Origin: Sialis fuliginosa
Lineage: Eukaryota; Arthropoda; Insecta; Megaloptera; Sialidae
Assembly (NCBI GenBank): GCA_961205875.1
Contig: OY540813.1
Location: forward strand, 4,311,001-4,375,000
DNA length: 64,000 bases
Reading direction: 5' to 3'
Shown here: positions 3,038-59,528 of the stretch, in pieces
Position numbering within the stretch: the first letter of the stretch is position 1
Layout: every line of letters begins with the position of its first letter
Translations under genes and position numbers: made by a program
Notes under the pieces: model-generated
Databases searched by the model: none
The model's input: the letters and a program-made list of their open reading frames with translations, nothing else
What the model was told of the DNA's origin: nothing

Positions 3038-3923
3038 AATTAAACAAAAAATGGACTTGTTTTACATTGGCATCGTACTTCTATCTTAATGAATTTTTAA
3101 TTAATCAAAAAATAAATTGTGATATAATTAATTTTATACATCTTTGACAAATTTTTTTATCAAATTATAAAAAAAACTTGAGACAGTGTTTTTGTATATA
3201 TAACTTACAAAGTTTAAGATATTTTTTGCTACTTTGACTAATTATATAGTTGTTCAAAACAAATTTAAATTATGAATGAACATTCTTGAATAAGCTCCAA
3301 ATCAATGTTATTTCATTGAAAATTACTAATGAAAATTATAATCCTAGTAAATAAATATCTCCAGACGGCGTCGAAGTTAGCATGTTTTTCTATCTGCTTG
3401 CATTAATTAATGTTTATGTAGAAAATATTTAAAATATGTGAACTGCTGGTTCAGAAATATTTTAAACTCAATAATTCTAATCGTAATTTAAAGTAAAATA
3501 CATGATATTATAAGATAGATCTTTTCGAGATTTTTTATCAAAAAAAAAATTAATTTTAAACGAATCAGTTATTAAAAACAGGAGAGGGAAGGAGACTTTT
3601 TAATTAAATTCTACAAAAAAAGGTAAGAAAATACTAAATACTTATACAAAGTTAAACTAATTAATAAAAATATGCAAAAAGTGTAATTTTTTTTCTGTAA
3701 GGATTTATTTCACTAATCAAGTTGTAACTTTGAAAGTTATTTTTGGGTATACCGCTTAAACCACATATAATTATTAATATTTTTTGATGTAGTTATACTC
3801 ACCCCTTCCTTACAAATGATTCATCTCATTTAACCAAATTTGTATCTATTACCGTTTATCTTGGACACCATGTTTATTATACTTTTGAAAATATTTTAGA
3901 ATTTGTTATTAATACTGTCAAAT
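3038..3923. other. Unassigned AT-rich DNA
   Basis: Very AT-rich, with poly-A and poly-T runs. No splice-bounded exon, RNA gene or repeat end could be recognised. Confidence 0.5.
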
Positions 3924-4052
3924 ATGGATCTTGGCTTCTGGGTGTAAGATGTTCACTGCAATGTGTGACGAAACGTTGGCCGATAACACGACCAAACCGA
4001 CGCGGCTTACACCCAGAAGCCAAAATCCATATCAAAATCACCGCGGAAGCCA
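3924..4052. repeat. Hairpin repeat family A, rearranged copy
   Basis: Begins ATGGATCTTGGCTTCTGGGT and ends with the mirrored TTACACCCAGAAGCCAAAAT plus a tail CACCGCGGAAGCC. Contains ACTGCAATGTGTGACGAAAC, the part of the family that resembles a hammerhead stem II and GAAA core. Other copies: 9119-9166 (fragment), 12468-12684, 21416-21560, 26432-26599, 26610-26796, 40878-40928. Confidence 0.7.
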
Positions 4053-12467: not shown

Positions 12468-12684
12468 GGATCTTGGCTTCTGGGTGTAAGCCGCGTCGAT
12501 TTGGCCGTGTTATCGGTCAACGTTTCGTCACACATTGCAGTGGACATCTTCAGAGCTCTTCTAAAAGTGATTTTTATGATATCCACTGCAATGTGTGACA
12601 AAACGTTGGTTGATAATACGACAAAACCGACGCGGCTTACATCCAGAAGCCAAGATCCATTTCAAAATCACCGCGGAAGCCTCA
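12468..12684. repeat. Hairpin repeat family A, longest copy
   Basis: Both arms are about 90 bases: GGATCTTGGCTTCTGGGTGT on the left, mirrored by CTTACATCCAGAAGCCAAGA on the right, meeting near a loop at 12560-12575. Each arm carries the ACTGCAATGTGTGAC-GAAAC type core, the left one read on the minus strand after CTGAAGAT. A tail CACCGCGGAAGCCTCA follows the right arm as in the other copies. Confidence 0.75.
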
Positions 12685-18240: not shown

Positions 18241-18469
18241 TTGTAGAGCATTAAATTTCCTATAATATAGGTCTACAACGTTTGTTGTAAAATATTCCCT
18301 TACAAAGATTTTTCTCAATTTGATATTTACTTTGACATATTAAATGTCGTTTTAACATCTAGTGAACAAGTGCAAAACTAAAAACGTTTTAGAGACTATA
18401 TCATAACAGAAATAAGTATTTTTTATCTGTATTATTTACCTAACCTAACTTGATGGTGTTTTTACTAAC

Positions 18470-18680
18470 CAAAATTCGAAGCGTATATAAATAAATTATA
18501 CCTTGTTAAGTCACTGATCTATAATATATTTAAAAATTAGGTCAGAAGAGTAAATAACATAACCTAACCTAACCTAACCTAACCAAAATTCGAAGCGTAT
18601 ACATATAAATAAATAATACCTTGTTACGTCACTGATCTATAATATATTTAAAAATTAGGTCAGAAGAGTAAATAACATGA
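18470..18680 (+). repeat. Direct duplication flanking a CCTAA tract
   Basis: A block of about 105 bases starting CCAAAATTCGAAGCGTATA and ending GTCAGAAGAGTAAATAACAT appears twice (18470-18560 and 18583-18678) with only a few differences. Between them lies 18561-18584, four to five units of CCTAA, the reverse of the insect telomere unit TTAGG. Confidence 0.8.
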
Positions 18681-19295
18681 CCTGTATCGATTTATTTTTT
18701 GCCAATCTTTTTCTTGATATTTATCACGGACATATTATATCCCCTGTTCAGAGTATTGCTACAAATTGATGAATTTTCAGTGGGCCGACGTATACATGAT
18801 TAATGAAATGCTTAGTTACTTTGCCACATCAGTTGATACTCCATCAATCACGTGGTCGCCGTGTCGTCCAATGAAACAATCGCTTTGTTAAATCACAGCC
18901 ATCTGTATCTATTGTACAGAATATATTGTTTGTTTATATCTTATCTTCTGTATTGTTAAAATTTTAAAATCATTGGTTAATTTTAATAAAATTTTCCTTT
19001 TTTGCTATTTTGTCATGTATAAAGCTTTTTAATATTAAGCATTAAAAGCATAGTTTCTCTTGGATATTAAATATCAATTTGTTTAAGTTATATTTCTTTA
19101 GAAATTTTAATAATGCAACGAATACAGATTTCTGTTATGATAGTTAATAAAACAGGTTTTTAAAGTTTTTGTTTTGTATTTGCTCGCTAGATGTCACTAC
19201 TAGACTCAGTAATTATTTTTCAATCACGCCAAAGAAGTATAACTTCTAACGCGTGTACATAAGTACACACACACACTTTTTTGTATATATATTTA
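18681..19295. other. Unassigned DNA
   Basis: Includes an inverted copy (19112-19200) of the CATAACAGAAATCTGTATT repeat segment. Otherwise AT-rich and featureless. Confidence 0.45.
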
Positions 19296-24150: not shown

Positions 24151-24231
24151 AAGTCACGTGAATTTGTCAATCCTCATCACAGCTTTCTATTCTTTCATAT
24201 TCAAATAGAATATAGGTATCAAATACAAATC

Positions 24232-24370
24232 CCCTAACCATAAAAATTGTAAGAGTTTAGACTTACACGTGTTTCAATAGCAATGCTATCATCATCAGAG
24301 TCTTAAAGACACTGTGTCTATTGAAACACGTGTAAGTCTAAACTCTTACAATTTTTATGGCTAGGGGATT
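24232..24370. repeat. Long inverted repeat with a hammerhead-type core
   Basis: Arms of about 50 bases: CCCCTAACCATAAAAATTGT, AAGAGTTTAGACTTACACGT on the left, mirrored by AAACACGTGTAAGTCTAAAC and ATTTTTATGGCTAGGGG on the right. The left arm, read on the minus strand, contains the full hammerhead-like sequence described next; the right arm has lost the CTGATGA part. Terminal repeats with hammerhead ribozymes are known from Penelope-like retroelements, to which this is a plausible relic. Confidence 0.75.
24259..24303 (-). ncRNA. Candidate type I hammerhead ribozyme, minimal stem III
   Basis: Read 5' to 3' on the minus strand: AGACT (stem I), CTGATGA (core box 1), one extra T, a stem II hairpin of GATAGC and GCTATT closed by an ATT loop (six pairs including one G-U), GAAA (core box 2), the self-complementary stem III ACACGTGT, cleavage triplet GTA, then AGTCT pairing perfectly with the first AGACT. 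Stem I continues outward with an A-A mismatch and three more pairs. Only the extra T before stem II departs from the consensus. A stem III without a true loop suggests that cleavage would need a dimer, as reported for hammerheads in Penelope-like elements and retrozymes. Activity is not shown by sequence. Confidence 0.6.
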
Positions 24371-25911
24371 TTTATTTGATAAGTCATAACCATAGTTTTT
24401 GTCTGTTGTTTGTTATTAGAATATAGGTATCCAAGTCATACAACGAATTTTGATACATAGATCATTTTCAAGTAGCGATTTCTGTTATCATAATCTAATC
24501 TTTAATGAAATATAATAATATATAATAGATCATTTTTACGCATTTACACAAAATTATAACGAAAAACTGAGGTACCTAAATCAAATTATTTTATCAAAAA
24601 CAAACAATTGCTTTTCATTATTATACGTTGATAAAATATATGCGTGGCATAAAAATTATTGGATTTGTAATACATAAAAGATACCTTTTCTGTAACAATT
24701 AAGCTTCATTTCACACTGTGCTTTTTGTAAACGTAGATTTTAATAACGTTTTTGTCGATTCAAAGAATATTCAACATGAACTTCTTTAATTAATTCAGTA
24801 TTTTTTTATGATTGCAAACGATTCTTTTTGCTGTTAGATTTGGCTTTCAATGGGGGTAATTAACATGATGAAAATGTATAAGAGAAATATATGTTTTTTG
24901 TTTTGCTTTTGTTCTTACGTTTCCTTAAACGTTTCGCTGTAATTATAAGTTTTAATGATGAAAATAATTGGTATTTTTAATATACAAAAAATTTTATAGT
25001 TAACAAATTTTACTCAAGCAATATTGATATCTATATAGCTATATATATTCGATTTGGCAATGTTACTAAAACTGTAAGTATATAAGTAAATTATGATGTT
25101 CCTTCTAATTTTCTTACCTTTAAATTGAGTATTGTATGGAATTGTATTTGAAGCATGAAATATAACTCAAAAATATTGAATTTTAGATTTCGTTAAGTGT
25201 ACGTTTTGAAATGAGCTGAAAAGTTGAAATCTTCAAATCGCAAGTCTGTATCTCAAACCGTTTTCGAGATATGGCCTCTCAAAATTTCAGTTTTTCAAAA
25301 TTTTTGAGAAAAATAGCCATAACTTTTGAACGCGTGGTTGAAATTGATTTTAGTTGACGAGTTTGAAATCAGAGTCTCAAAATCTATATAATGAGATGTA
25401 TAACACTTCAATTGAAAATTTACACTAGCGTGCAAACTGATTTCTGCGTGTTACAGTTTCTGAAATGCCCACCCAGTATTTAGCGTAAATGTTATTCACG
25501 TCAGAAGTAACAATCGATAATAAAATTGGTTATAAATACAGCAATAAATTATCATACCATATTTCGGACGAGGCATATAATATTCAGGATAATGTTTCAA
25601 TTAATGACCTCATCTACTTGTCTAATTACACTAGCACAGCTTATAATTATAGGGGTTCAAAGTTTACCACGTCTACGCATAAACCTCAAGTGACCGCTAG
25701 GTGACCATCGTCATATCGCTTTATAATAAATAGGATACCACGTACTTCATCTGTGCAGTGGTGTACTGGAAACACTATTAATGTATTGCTTGTATTAGGT
25801 ATTAGGGAATTTCCATAAATCACTTAGGGAGGGGGGTTACAGCTATATTGTCTACATGGCGTTACATAAAATCGAATAAAAGACAAAACATTAATGGACG
25901 ATTAAAGCCTA
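24371..25911. other. Unassigned DNA with repeat G copy 2
   Basis: About 25189-25400 repeats the block of 10461-10760 (AATCGCAAGTCTGTATCTCA, CGTTTTCGAGATATGGCCTC). The remaining sequence is AT-rich; a 71-codon frame at 25489 has no recognisable features. Confidence 0.45.
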
Positions 25912-26431: not shown

Positions 26432-26599
26432 GGATCTTGGCTTCTGTCGATTTGGTTGTGTTATCGGACAACGTTTCGTCACACATTGCAGTGGACATCT
26501 TCAGGGCTCTTTTCTTTTCAGAAGAACCCTGAATAACACGACCAAATCGACGCGGCTTACGCCCAGAAGCCAATATCCATATCAAGATCACCACGGAAG
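26432..26599. repeat. Hairpin repeat family A, tandem copy 1
   Basis: ATGGATCTTGGCTTCTGTCG start, loop near 26510-26525 (GGCTCTTTTCTTTTCAGAAG), mirrored right arm and CACCACGGAAG tail. Confidence 0.75.
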
Positions 26600-26609
26600 T
26601 CTATGATAA

Positions 26610-26796
26610 TGGATCTTGGCTTCTGGGTGTAAGCCGGGTCGATTTGGTCGTGTTATCGGTCAACGTTTCGTCACACATTGCAGTGGACATCTTCAGGGCT
26701 CTTCTCTTCTTAGAAGAGCCCTGAATAACACGACCAAATCGACGCGGCTTACACCCAGAAGCCAACATCCATATCAAGATCACCGCGGAAGCCTCA
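26610..26796. repeat. Hairpin repeat family A, tandem copy 2
   Basis: Directly follows copy 1 with only about 10 bases between. The minus strand reads AGCC, CTGAAGA, T, GTCCAC-loop-GTG-T-GAC, GAAACGTT: box 1 fits CUGANGA and stem II has six pairs with one bulge, but a matching stem I is not present. Reading frames of 60-90 codons through both copies on either strand arise from the hairpin and are not genes. Confidence 0.75.
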
Positions 26797-26899
26797 TGAT
26801 ACTGCGTTACGTAACATTAAGCGGGGTGAGGGGAGGGGTAGAGGTGAATTAGCTCGTGTTTTAATTAATTTTATTCACTTGTATTAATTAATGAAATAA

Positions 26900-49492: not shown

Positions 49493-51925
<2,433 letters not shown>

Positions 51926-54839: not shown

Positions 54840-55536
54840 CATTGTGTCTATAATGAATTCAATAAAAATACATTAAAGTCATGTTTAATTACATGCTGTG
54901 TTTTATGCCTAAACCTAGAATATGACTGTAATTATAAAAAGTTTTATTTCCATACATAACTATTAATTTGTAACCAATGTCACATGTTTATGACGTCATT
55001 TATTATTTATTATGTCGAATAAATAAGGTGTTGCAAAGTAGGTAGTTCATGAAAGTAGAAATACAAATAATGTTTTTATTCAGATTTTTCATTTGAATAC
55101 GCGCAAATAACGGAAATAATTATCAAATATTTTGATATAAAAACCACAAAAGTTGGCAATGATATTGATTACCAATTTAGTATTTGATTAACCTATTTTG
55201 CAATTTTATATTATTTGACCATAAAAGTAGAAGCATTTAATGAAGCAGAGTGTTTTTTACGTTTTACAATTAAATTAGTTATTTCTTCGATATGTGCATC
55301 AAGTGTAAATTAAAATTATACATCAACAGGTGGTCTAAGGTACATAAATAAATAAAAATATTTGCAAGTGATGGATACTCAAAACTTAAATCACTCATTT
55401 TTTGCTCAAATCAAAAGATAATGATCATTAACGAACAAATGTCGCAATAATTATTTTATATGTATATATTGCATTTATTTTACATATCATGTATAAATAG
55501 AATTAATCAATATTAAGAAAACAATCAATACTTACA
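54840..55536. other. Intergenic DNA upstream of the KRAP-domain gene
   Basis: AT-rich; no TATA or initiator could be singled out. Presumably holds the promoter and 5' UTR of the gene starting at 55537. Confidence 0.4.
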
Positions 55537-56617
55537 ATGCGTCGAAAGTCTCCTATAACAATACAGCAGTGGGTAGACTCCTTACCCACACCGATGGAGA
55601 ATCAAAAGCAGACTGAACCAAGCATATCAAAGGCGAAAAGTGAGAAGACGGCCATATCATCTCAAGAACATTTAGAATCTACTCGCAAGTTTAGTCTGAG
55701 AGGGGTTTTAACAAGAGATGCATCATTTCAATCAGATGATGCCAGTAGTCATTGTTCAAGTGTAGAATCTGTATTGGAATCTCGTAAACCTGATCCTGAA
55801 GCCGTACTTATAGGACTAGGTTTTGGATCGTCCATCGTAGAAAATGATGTTTCTAGAATACCAAAGCGTTTTCTACAACCTTCCAAGGTAAAGGTAATCT
55901 ATTAATTTGATTTTATAATTTTAAATTCTGTAATGTATTATCTCGGAGAGGTGATTTTCTAATAAACCGGCAAATGTAAAACAAAAGAACATCTGTTGAT
56001 AAGAAATATCAACAAAAATTCAATGAGCTCTCACAAATATGAATATAAACTATAAAATATGTACGCACAGATATTAATTAAGGCAATCTCTACATTTTAT
56101 ATTTTCGTATTAATATTTATTACATAATGCAAATTTTAAAAGTTTGCTTTTACTTTCAGGTGGCTGGAGTTAATATAGATAGATTTCTTCAAGAACAACA
56201 AGCCGCTTCTGCAGCTGCAAATAGCTATTTTTGGCCGCAGTATGTATATCATAATTTTTTTGGTTTGTAATACATTCTAGTGTATTGGGAATGACAAACG
56301 TGTACTATCGCATGCAAACTTGATATAAATACATACGTCTCATAATTGTTCAAAATTTCGTATAGTCGTGAATATAATTATATTTGATTTTCAAAAAATA
56401 ATTGAAAGATAACCAATAATGGTTAATATTTAAAATAAGTCTCTTCAACAGAGATGAACTGTTACTTTTGCATTCAATAGTAGAATATGAAATTTCCACA
56501 ACTGTAAAATTTATGTTGATATTTAATAATTGTTACAGTTTACAATCATCACTGAACGTTGGCAATCAATACAGGAACATTCCTTCAAAGGACCAAAAGT
56601 CGGAACCTACATCATAG
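55537..56617 (+). CDS. Small KRAP/TESPA1-type (IP3-receptor-binding) domain protein, 169 aa
   Basis: Three coding exons: 55537-55887, 56160-56239, 56539-56617 (stop TAG), 510 nt. Residues about 86-130 carry the diagnostic pattern of the KRAP/TESPA1 IP3-receptor-binding domain: DPEAVLIGLGFG at 86-97, DVSRIPKRFLQPS at 104-116, then GVNIDRFLQEQQ. In vertebrates (ITPRID2/KRAP, TESPA1) the segment reads like DPEEILLDLGFG...IPARFF...GIDFKVFL and tethers IP3 receptors to actin or signalling complexes. The N terminus (KSPITIQQWVDSLP) and a serine-rich middle (62-80) suit a regulatory adaptor. It is far shorter than vertebrate relatives and ends soon after the domain, so it may be a minimal insect version. 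A second donor six bases downstream (exon end 55893) would add two residues. Domain call good; function in insects is inferred from vertebrates. Confidence 0.8.
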
Positions 56618-57339: not shown

Positions 57340-59528
57340 ATGTTTAAAGGTAACACATATTATAAAATGAAGAGTTGCCGGTGTTTCTAACCAAACTTTT
57401 TTTTATAGGGGTGTTAATATTTAGTGTAGGATTTTTACTAGTATCCTTAACAGAATGTAGCGTAATAGGATATATACGTCCGATAGATCATTCTAGATAT
57501 TTGCGTATTCTTGAAGAAAATTTAATTACAAATGAAGTACTGAATATACATTATGCATCGCACGGCTACAAACTTCTATCACAACAATTACCGGTTGATA
57601 AATCTACAGCAGCGTGTAGAGTACTACAAAATACCATCAAGAGTGGTGGCCTCAAATTAGATTCAGTTTATCATTTATCTTCTGCATTGAAATATTTGGG
57701 AACTTGTAAAGATGTAACGTTGAAAGATGCTGATATAAAAGTAAGTTATATTGTATTCAAAATGCTGAACAAGGATTATTCCTATGTAGCTTATATTTTT
57801 GTGTGAGGGTTTATTAACATTTTATTTTATTAATATGTAACTTACTGATTCCTTCCATTTTAGATTGCACATGATACAATTTCTGATAGTTCTGCTTCAA
57901 TACATGATCTATTTTATGCAGTTATTACATTAAAGAATTTGGGAAAACCAATTGAAAATGGTGCAAAAATAGCACAGAATTTACAGACTAAACTCAAAAC
58001 AGAAGACTCACTTCAAAAGTAAGTTTAAATAATATCCGTAAATGTATATCAAATTATTAAAACATATATAAACATTATAGTTTGGGATACGCTTTTCACA
58101 TTGCTTCTAATTTGGGTGCATCTGGAAAATTTGCACAAGATCGCATAGAAGAAGCTTTAGTCCAGGCTGATGAAGTTGATGGAAAAATGTTACAATTTGA
58201 AGGAGGGTTAAGTGTTACTTCATTATTACTAGTCGGCATTGACAGTGTCTTAAAATCTCAAAACAAGCCTAATGTTATAACAATCGCGCAAGCTGAAAAA
58301 TTCGGAAACTACCTCATGTCAAGACGTAGCATTCAGTCAGTGAAAGGAGTCTGCAACTTACTCGAAGCAGTTAAAATTTTCACTGACAACAAACAACTAT
58401 CACCTGCAAGTATCAGTTTGGCCAGCACTGGTCCTGTAATGGCAATAGTATCAATAAGAGTGTGCGATATGTTGGGCAAACCATTATTATCAGCATCTGA
58501 TTCGGTTATTGCTCAATCCGCAACACGATTAGGAGATGACGTCGTTGTATTGGCAAAACAGAAACTTGTTTCAACCGCAGACTCTAGTATCTTCAATTTA
58601 GAATTACCCCGTGATCGTATGGCTGCAGGATTGTACCGTGTTGCTGTCAGTGCTGGATCACATTCAGCCTCGTTAACAATAACTGCTTTAGCTAACGGAG
58701 CGATATCTTATTTAGATATTGGTGTCGTTGATACAGACCAATCTTCTCCAGGCAAATTGCAACGTATAAAATATCCTTCCACTTTGCAAACGATTCTGGA
58801 TGCTGATTCCCAACAGAGATTAGCAATTAGATTCTTATTTGTTGATGAGACTACTAATAAACCATTCCAAATTCAACAATCATTTGTACGATTGATGAAC
58901 GTGAAGACCGGGCAAGAAATAGTTTATGTAGCGGAACAGGAGGATTCTGGAGCATATCGGGCAGATTTGGTAAGATTGAATTATTTATTTATTAGGTTAT
59001 TATTGTAATATATATACTTAATTGTAATCGTTTCAGGAAATTGGCACAAAATCAGCTGACTTGAATGGTGAATCAGGAATCTATAACATAGACTTAATTC
59101 TTGGTGATACTGTTTTAAGCAATCCATTCGAATGGAAGGTAGGACAAATAAACATTAAAGTTCCTGCACTTGAGCCGGAACCAGTCCGTCGTACTGGACC
59201 AAAACCAGAAATACATCATCAGTTCCGTGAAGCTGAAATAAGACCACCGCAATTTGTGTCCATGCTATTTACCGGACTGTGCATAGCACCCTTACTCTTA
59301 TTGTTAATTTTGTGGTTTAAACTTGGTGTAAACGTATCTAATTTCCCGCTCAGCTTGAGTGCAATTATCTTCCATGTTAGTTTAGCTGGAATCTTTGGGT
59401 TGTTTGGTGTATTTTGGTTAAGTTTAGATATGTTCCAAACGTGCAGATGGTTGCTTCTTCTAGGTCTAGTCACATTTGTTTCAGGACATAAGTTGTTGAG
59501 TTCCATAGCGGAAAAACGTAAACACTAA
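57340..59528 (+). CDS. RPN2: Ribophorin II, oligosaccharyltransferase subunit, 625 aa
   Basis: Five coding exons: 57340-57349, 57409-57740, 57864-58018, 58081-58969, 59037-59528 (stop TAA), 1878 nt. Part of the ER-membrane complex that transfers the preassembled glycan to asparagine of nascent proteins; the homologous yeast subunit is Swp1. The first coding exon is only ten bases (MFK plus one base) and completes a signal peptide, MFKGVLIFSVGFLLVSL, with cleavage expected near TEC at 20-22. A long lumenal region follows (YIRPIDHSRYLRILEENL near 25-45, then helical repeats and a beta-rich part 270-500). Three C-terminal membrane segments are at about 535-557, 566-591 and 597-616, ending in the basic tail AEKRKH. 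Length agrees with human RPN2 (631 aa). AATAAA at 59664-59669 is the likely polyadenylation signal. Confidence 0.95.

Follow-up and report, generated by a model that had tools for sequence, protein, structure and literature searches.

At positions 24259-24303 of the window, that is, of the whole 64,000-nucleotide stretch of Sialis fuliginosa DNA analysed here, a first-pass annotation placed a candidate hammerhead ribozyme on the minus strand and attributed it to a Penelope-like retroelement (PLE). The locus raises the questions of whether this motif is a hammerhead at all, what kind of element carries it, and how its RNA may act there. The motif can be read from the sequence and is present as first described, apart from the extension of stem I. 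From 24303 to 24259, it is composed of the following parts:

24299-24303, minus strand: stem I, 5' strand AGACT (sequence and covariance model R1)
24292-24298, minus strand: box 1, CTGATGA (sequence; CTGATGA or CTGAAGA in three other PLE families)
24291, minus strand: spare T between A9 and stem II (T, G, T and T across four PLE families)
24276-24290, minus strand: stem II hairpin, GATAGC-ATT-GCTATT (22 of 24 positions paired over four families)
24273-24275, minus strand: box 2, GAA (G12, A13 and A14; sequence)
24265-24272, minus strand: self-complementary stem III, ACACGTGT, from A15.1 to U16.1 (minimum-energy dimer fold)
24264, minus strand: H17, an A, with the predicted cut between 24264 and 24263 (alignment to model R1)
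24259-24263, minus strand: stem I, 3' strand AGTCT (sequence and model R1)

This arrangement has the type I order of CUGANGA, GAA, A15.1-U16.1, H17 and stems I, II and III, with one extra base after A9. Stem I had been credited with three further pairs, of which only two (T-A and T-A) are found past the A.A mismatch. Stem II is closed by a G.U pair and has a loop of 3 nt; PLE hammerheads are said, in an excerpt of PMC6155905, to be without loop-loop contact of stems I and II. Since ACACGTGT has no loop, a single molecule forms at most two stem III pairs, around ACGU, and all eight pairs form only between two molecules or units.

Matches of this kind are rare in random sequence. A relaxed descriptor found 169 matches in 16,963 random 64-kb windows drawn from a first-order Markov model (0.010 per window), and four were equally strong. 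Covariance model R1, built from 25 phage type I hammerheads whose loci had been fetched by pattern, gives the motif the top score of the window, 17.6 bits (rough E 0.0011), with the next site at 10.9; applied to 46 held-out phage loci, the same model scored 70 matches at 12.6-66.1 bits, and 67 of these exceed 17.6. A check with the Rfam covariance models, as envisaged in the first-pass annotation, returned no hammerhead: there were 0 matches at gathering score, 7 matches in the window at E up to 10 without a hammerhead among them, and 35 matches at E up to 10 in the 201 bp around the site, all below gathering score, none to a hammerhead and mostly to microRNA models fitting the long hairpin. 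Phage controls are likewise missed, since 14 loci with real phage hammerheads gave 0 matches at gathering score, and phage locus L037, searched in E-value mode, gave RF00163 four times at 25.1-30.2 bits versus a gathering score of 34. Because this threshold misses real phage hammerheads too, the silence of Rfam on the motif says little.

The motif is embedded in a near-perfect palindrome of 165 bp (24217-24381) with 64-nt arms that are complementary at 62 of 64 positions; the inverted repeat described earlier, with one arm lacking box 1, is thus borne out. The parts of this copy and its borders are as follows:

24206-24220, no strand: target-site duplication, left copy TAGAATATAGGTATC, a direct repeat with 24417-24431; its last four bases, TATC, coincide with the pseudo-LTR (pLTR) arm end
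24217-24313, minus strand: tail-less pLTR arm, AGTGTC to GATA on the minus strand (97 of 97 nt identical to L347 7544-7640, sense; L349 196-292)
24314-24317, no strand: four extra bases, GTGT on the plus strand, at the arm junction (the arms being L349 196-292 and 229-325)
24318-24381, plus strand: tail-bearing pLTR arm (L349 229-292)
24382-24414, plus strand: 33-nt tail AGTCATAACCATAGTTTTTGTCTGTTGTTTGTT, also at L349 293-325 before the ORF start (574 genomic core matches)
24417-24431, no strand: target-site duplication, right copy TAGAATATAGGTATC, a direct repeat with 24206-24220

The tail-less arm contains the complete hammerhead, and GAA, ACACGTGT and the 3' strand of stem I all lie within the palindrome arm. 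The hammerhead of the tail-bearing arm is without box 1 because that arm begins inside stem II. The direct repeat flanking the site was also considered as the mark of an empty-site paralogue, an idea rejected in favor of a target-site duplication, 15 nt long in the window copy. Exact words of the arms had 0 matches when searched in viral contigs.

Our first reading of such a structure was a chance hammerhead likeness inside a palindromic DNA transposon (MITE). The near-perfect palindrome, the TA at each arm end and the lack of a hammerhead in the Rfam output all suit it, as does the low stability of the hammerhead fold relative to the fold-back. For the palindrome RNA, the predicted hairpin has -102.4 kcal/mol; when the hammerhead pairs are imposed on the window copy, with 60-nt flanks, the fold comes out 33.6 kcal/mol worse than the 64-bp fold-back; by these computed energies, the fold-back should oppose hammerhead cleavage of this copy. 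The MITE reading was abandoned after a genome search showed PLE copies. That search covered the window's own 392-Mb assembly, where the 40 scored of 1115 candidates gave at least 82 matches. Thirty-nine other places, chosen by likeness to the window copy, were fetched with their flanks, and box 1 is CTGATGA in register in 36 of the 40 aligned rows, window included, the exceptions being L252, L260, L266 and L276. The hammerhead core has 980 genome matches at up to 3 mismatches and the tail core 574 at up to 2, with 0 for the reversed-pattern control in each case. The copies carry the fixed tail on one side and the GATA end on the other, some ends being truncated or diverged, and both strands encode the motif because the longest copies have it in each arm.

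Target-site duplications were scored starting from 70 loci (39 chosen by likeness, 30 by tail, and the window). Fourteen with a missing end or tail were set aside, and eight that repeat the first 150 nt of another row were dropped (five fetched twice, and three other insertions, L255-L257), leaving 48. A duplication of at least 9 nt was found in 35 of the 48 copies (9-17 nt, median 13), two of which, L264 and L298, have a common duplication and may be copies of one region; when flanks were exchanged between copies, 0.3 copies on average, and 2 at most, had such a duplication. Beyond these counts, 33 of the 35 copies were seen to share 1-6 nt between the duplication and the GATA end, which may reflect microhomology, at priming, or a target or cutting preference. 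At one locus (L278, G000:C14:16464500-16465129), half an element and a flank with the target-site copy are repeated in tandem directly behind a full element.

Neither a duplication of fixed length nor symmetrical terminal inverted repeats, as looked for in a MITE, are found here. The varying duplication length, the presence of the tail on one side only, the partner coding for a reverse transcriptase (RT) and a probable GIY-YIG domain, and the pairing retained in three other PLE families despite changed stem sequences (both treated below) all speak against a MITE, and we now consider a chance motif in such a transposon to be exceedingly improbable.

The partner is a 535-aa open frame, 5'-truncated (L347), beside one tail copy (L303). 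It matches RVT_1 at E 1.9e-13, above its cut-off, and GIY-YIG at E 5e-4 and 20.7 bits, just under the Pfam cut-off of 22.6. The frame ends 102 nt before a sense hammerhead pLTR, which is followed by the tail, and has 82 genome matches, some in tandem. In the tandem junction L349, the stop codon is at 94-96, TATATAA at 163, AGTGTC at 196, the predicted cut at 245/246, the GATA end at 292, the tail at 293-325 and the ATG at 332. The element family thus combines RT and C-terminal GIY-YIG in one frame (the latter under cut-off) with pLTRs that are direct in L349 and inverted in the arms, one of them bearing a tail within the 30-40 bp seen in PLEs, and with target-site duplications of variable length in those 35 of 48 copies.

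The proposed origin from a Penelope-like retroelement is upheld by the match of the window arm, at 97 of 97 nt, to the pLTR of this coding element, and the proposed recent mobility by that same identity together with the 15-bp target-site duplication. The window copy is an internally deleted PLE, made of two head-to-head pLTR arms with the 33-nt tail on one, and it was inserted recently. As the best explanation of the locus, we are highly confident that the hammerhead is the type I hammerhead of a Penelope-like retroelement's pLTR, copied and inserted along the route proposed below.

PLE hammerheads were already known before this case, and hammerhead motifs of Penelope-like elements are reportedly the subject of papers by Cervera and de la Pena in 2014 and by Lunse, Weinberg and Breaker in 2017. 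As described in excerpts of later accounts, they are minimal type I motifs in the pLTR with most of helix III missing, which may cleave as dimers (PMC6155905, PMC7761336), and their role is called unknown by a review (PMC7761336, in the part quoted). The present motif is like the published ones in being a minimal type I motif in a pLTR with little helix III, and differs in that stem III is an 8-nt palindrome in two families or ACGU in two, with a spare base in all four. A palindromic, weak helix III is known also from salamander hammerheads, according to an excerpt of PMC7229834.

As described for PLEs and for Poseidon of the green anole (PMC11167929), an optional tail of 30-40 bp lies between two RT start sites. 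Poseidon resembles the present element in RT plus GIY-YIG, this placement of the tail, an AC-rich RT start site, AT-rich targets, and a hammerhead near the ORF start. In that account, its RT starts 111-118 bp inside the ORF, which begins at stem II, so that C3 and G8 precede the start codon, and its hammerhead is reported to have cut only when protein was present (PMC11167929). Here, in contrast, the tail precedes the ATG (L349 293-325 and 332), and the frame begins only downstream of the complete hammerhead. Penelope of the rotifer Adineta vaga is alike in its inverted pLTRs with a 31-bp tail on one, its short target-site duplications, the palindromes at the inverted junction and its internally deleted derivatives; the passages concerned name no hammerhead (PMC3846280). 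Unlike what is described there, short non-coding palindromes make up half of 70 tail-selected copies here. In the publications consulted, no earlier description was found of short palindromes forming half of tail-selected copies, nor of an arm-end count.

Four PLE families of the same genome bear on whether the hammerhead pairing is kept. Sixteen stretches behind or between PLE frames (two of the element's own family, four of family B, three of C, two of D and five of others), which include near-identical copies of one family and are not independent, contain a sense CTGANGA..GAAA in 14 cases, with one antisense match besides; 2000 draws of random window stretches of equal lengths averaged 0.68 of 16 and never exceeded 4. 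Protein identity to the own family is 53-56% for family B, 33-34% for C and 36% for D. Stem I is GACT-AGTC in the own family, GCTC-GAGT in B, GAC-GTC in C and GTAC-GTAC in D, with 5, 4, 3 and 4 contiguous pairs, respectively. Stem II, in the same order, is GATAGC/GCTATT, GACTTC/GAAGTC, GGCCGA/TCGACC and GGACAG/CTGCCC, and is paired at 22 of 24 positions over the four. Shuffling the stem letters reached the stem I or the stem II total in 0 of 200,000 trials, in a test that comprises four families with pieces anchored by structure, MAFFT having misaligned C and D. Families E and F (L359, L361 and L362), which show the box, the spare base and stem II with 0 to 2 stem I pairs by eye, were left out of the pairing count. 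Model R1 finds family B at 20.6 bits and, in the same search, neither C nor D. A self-complementary stem III is present in all four families, as a perfect palindrome of 8 nt in two and as ACGU in two. Judged from these sequence comparisons, the motif is a real hammerhead-type RNA motif, of a kind known in PLEs.

The covariation of the stems lies between families. Compensatory changes among close genomic copies, to which the first-pass annotation had pointed as a check, are not supported: the core is no better conserved than the rest in these copies and shows no sign of selection. Variant rates are 0.011 for the rest (35/3292), 0.009 for stem II, 0.011 for stem III and 0.012 for the 3' strand of stem I, with 0.027 for box 1 (11/409 cells) and 0.093 for the 5' strand of stem I (27/291), the last two being higher at least partly because they border the junction. 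Such rates would suit a hammerhead fossil, in which the motif is inherited via overlap with a promoter, a 5' leader or a protein-binding sequence and cleavage no longer matters. Two further points agree with a fossil, namely the arm ends described below, which pile up at the uncleaved 5' end and not at the cut, and the report, in an excerpt of PMC11167929, that anole hammerhead mutants left in vitro insertion unchanged. Against it, families only 33-56% identical in protein agree in the box residues, GAA, U16.1 and H17, and their stems I and II differ by paired changes; this combination is hard to explain without the hammerhead fold. We judge the fossil unlikely, if still worth serious weight.

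The hammerhead of the four PLE families has a further peculiarity in the base between A9 and stem II. The first-pass annotation had noticed a spare base at the same place in other hammerhead-like cores of the window; in the genome, it is present in the three other families, as G in B and as T in C and D. In families C and D, the spare base turns A9-U-G into an AUG opening a frame of at least 35 codons, and this creation of an AUG may explain its presence in those two; in the own family, the AUG frame at A9 runs for nine codons before it closes, and B has a G at this place. The notion of the spare base as an oddity of this window was rejected, as it recurs in phage hammerheads (viral contig loci L079 and L121-L239) and other PLE families. 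A pattern that demanded a spare A, C or T has at least 125 matches listed in viral contigs (94 T, 17 C and 14 A). Among these matches listed, 32 have stems I and III (31 T and 1 A), and 25 (24 T and 1 A) have them in stricter form. In the CChMVd hammerhead, as reported in an excerpt of PMC3705267, an extra A10 lowers trans-cleavage moderately and its change to U raises it 3-4 fold. The likeness consists of one extra base between A9 and G10.1; that case is a viroid with an extra A, versus U or G here, and type and context differ (PMC3705267, same excerpt). A spare base common to four families of one genome likewise had no earlier description in the publications consulted.

Several other features of the window were recorded. 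Another palindromic repeat family, with GGATCTTGGCTTCTGGGTGTAAG ends, occurs at 12468-12658, 26446-26801 and 3922-4032. The repeats at 12.5 and 26.5 kb contain a core of CTGAAGA-T-GTCCAC..GTGTGAC-GAA-ACGT-T, with the same spare T and at most one stem I pair, and the CTGAAGA-T core of this family has 2982 genome matches at up to 3 mismatches (control 0). Among ten stretches of the family, TTTAGAAGAG(C/T)C precedes the box in five, where it follows dissimilar sequence, and a GCC/GGC stem I can form in three. This is probably a further PLE-like hammerhead family. Tandem 118-bp units at 18465-18683 adjoin (TAACC)6, the complement of the insect telomere motif TTAGG, at an internal position. Exons of a protein kinase, a KRAP IP3R-binding domain protein and ribophorin II lie at 50432-50878, 55507-55905 and 57366-59528, respectively.

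As to how the ribozyme may act, action as a double hammerhead is expected because stem III is loop-less and self-complementary. The minimum-energy dimer of the own core is predicted to be a double hammerhead, at -26.3 versus twice -8.2 kcal/mol, in which the two molecules share an 8-bp stem III and exchange their stems I; 25 of 300 shuffles are as low in dimer energy and 54 of 300 reach the energy gain, so that neither value is extreme. The family B dimer folds nearly alike, with two extra pairs in box 1, and energy folding of families C and D gives no double hammerhead.

The use made of the RNA was approached through the arm ends of 70 copies, chosen by exact tail match alone in list order from C1 and C2 (30 plus 40, the palindromic copies L249, L254 and L275 being skipped in the second set). 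Of the 70 tail arms, 27 end at L349 194-200, with the TATA box starting 33 nt before; 12 end farther upstream, 5 within 3 nt of the predicted cut (1 exactly), and the rest are scattered. An inverted tail-less arm is present in 35 of the 70, which are short palindromes without coding sequence, and among these 35 tail-less arms, 18 stop at 194-200, another 4 farther upstream, and 2 no more than 3 nt from the cut, 1 of them exactly there. The same peak at 194-200 is seen in a mixed set of copies. If the 31 tail arms with ends at 201-293 were spread evenly, about 2.3 would fall within 3 nt of the cut, where 5 are seen; minor use of cleaved RNA as template may occur. Because arm ends pile up at the TATA-predicted 5' end and not at the cut, these 70 copies suggest that insertion mostly uses uncleaved RNA as its template and that the ribozyme does not trim the RNA that is copied. 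Private variants common to both arms, as expected if one RNA gave both, number 5 of 81, which is not above chance (permuted mean 2.6, maximum 8 in 1000).

These ends also bear on whether the locus could be a metazoan non-LTR retrozyme, in which a small circular RNA made by double hammerhead cleavage is then inserted. The copies are small and AT-rich and have a type I hammerhead and target-site duplications, and retrozymes occur in insects according to an excerpt of PMC7229834. The units are nevertheless not bounded by hammerhead cuts: they end at the tail, at GATA and near AGTGTC, and an end exactly at the cut is seen in a single arm of each kind (1 of 70 with a tail, 1 of 35 without). Moreover, the copies stand as inverted pairs, carry a PLE tail and are identical in sequence to the coding PLE's pLTR. 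A retrozyme is accordingly very unlikely, and we return to the Penelope-like element.

In the route that we propose for this element, the pLTR would run from the TATA box to a predicted RNA 5' end 33 nt on, with the hammerhead directly after it. By likeness to the anole element, the GATA end would be the second RT start site, the 33-nt tail would end at the first, and the frame for RT and GIY-YIG would have its start codon after the tail. The element protein would cut AT-rich DNA and reverse transcribe from both start sites, and the tailed and tail-less cDNAs, head to head and joined at their RNA-5' ends, would give the palindrome. In the window copy, one arm would have reached the RNA 5' end with the whole hammerhead, and the other would have stopped before box 1. 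The hammerhead would act for the most part through the pairing of two tandem units into a double hammerhead.

A broader proposition, which we offer tentatively and regard as possible but doubtful, is that the PLE hammerheads of this genome form a class of their own. Its marks are the spare base behind A9 and a palindromic stem III that lacks a loop, and it would cleave solely when tandem units combine into a double hammerhead. The ribozyme would be the first structure of the mRNA, and its cleavage would remove the capped 5' end. It would not serve to make the template, as integrated cDNAs reach the uncleaved 5' end, and its selected role would lie elsewhere, for instance in uncapping the mRNA or in parting tandem read-through RNAs. 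The arm-end result agrees with the anole in vitro result on hammerhead mutants. Seen in four families, the spare base and the palindromic stem III can also serve as a simple search pattern for PLE hammerheads that are missing from the Rfam output here. Each arm keeps the point at which cDNA synthesis, or the junction, stopped, and the several hundred copies of this genome are a natural record of it.
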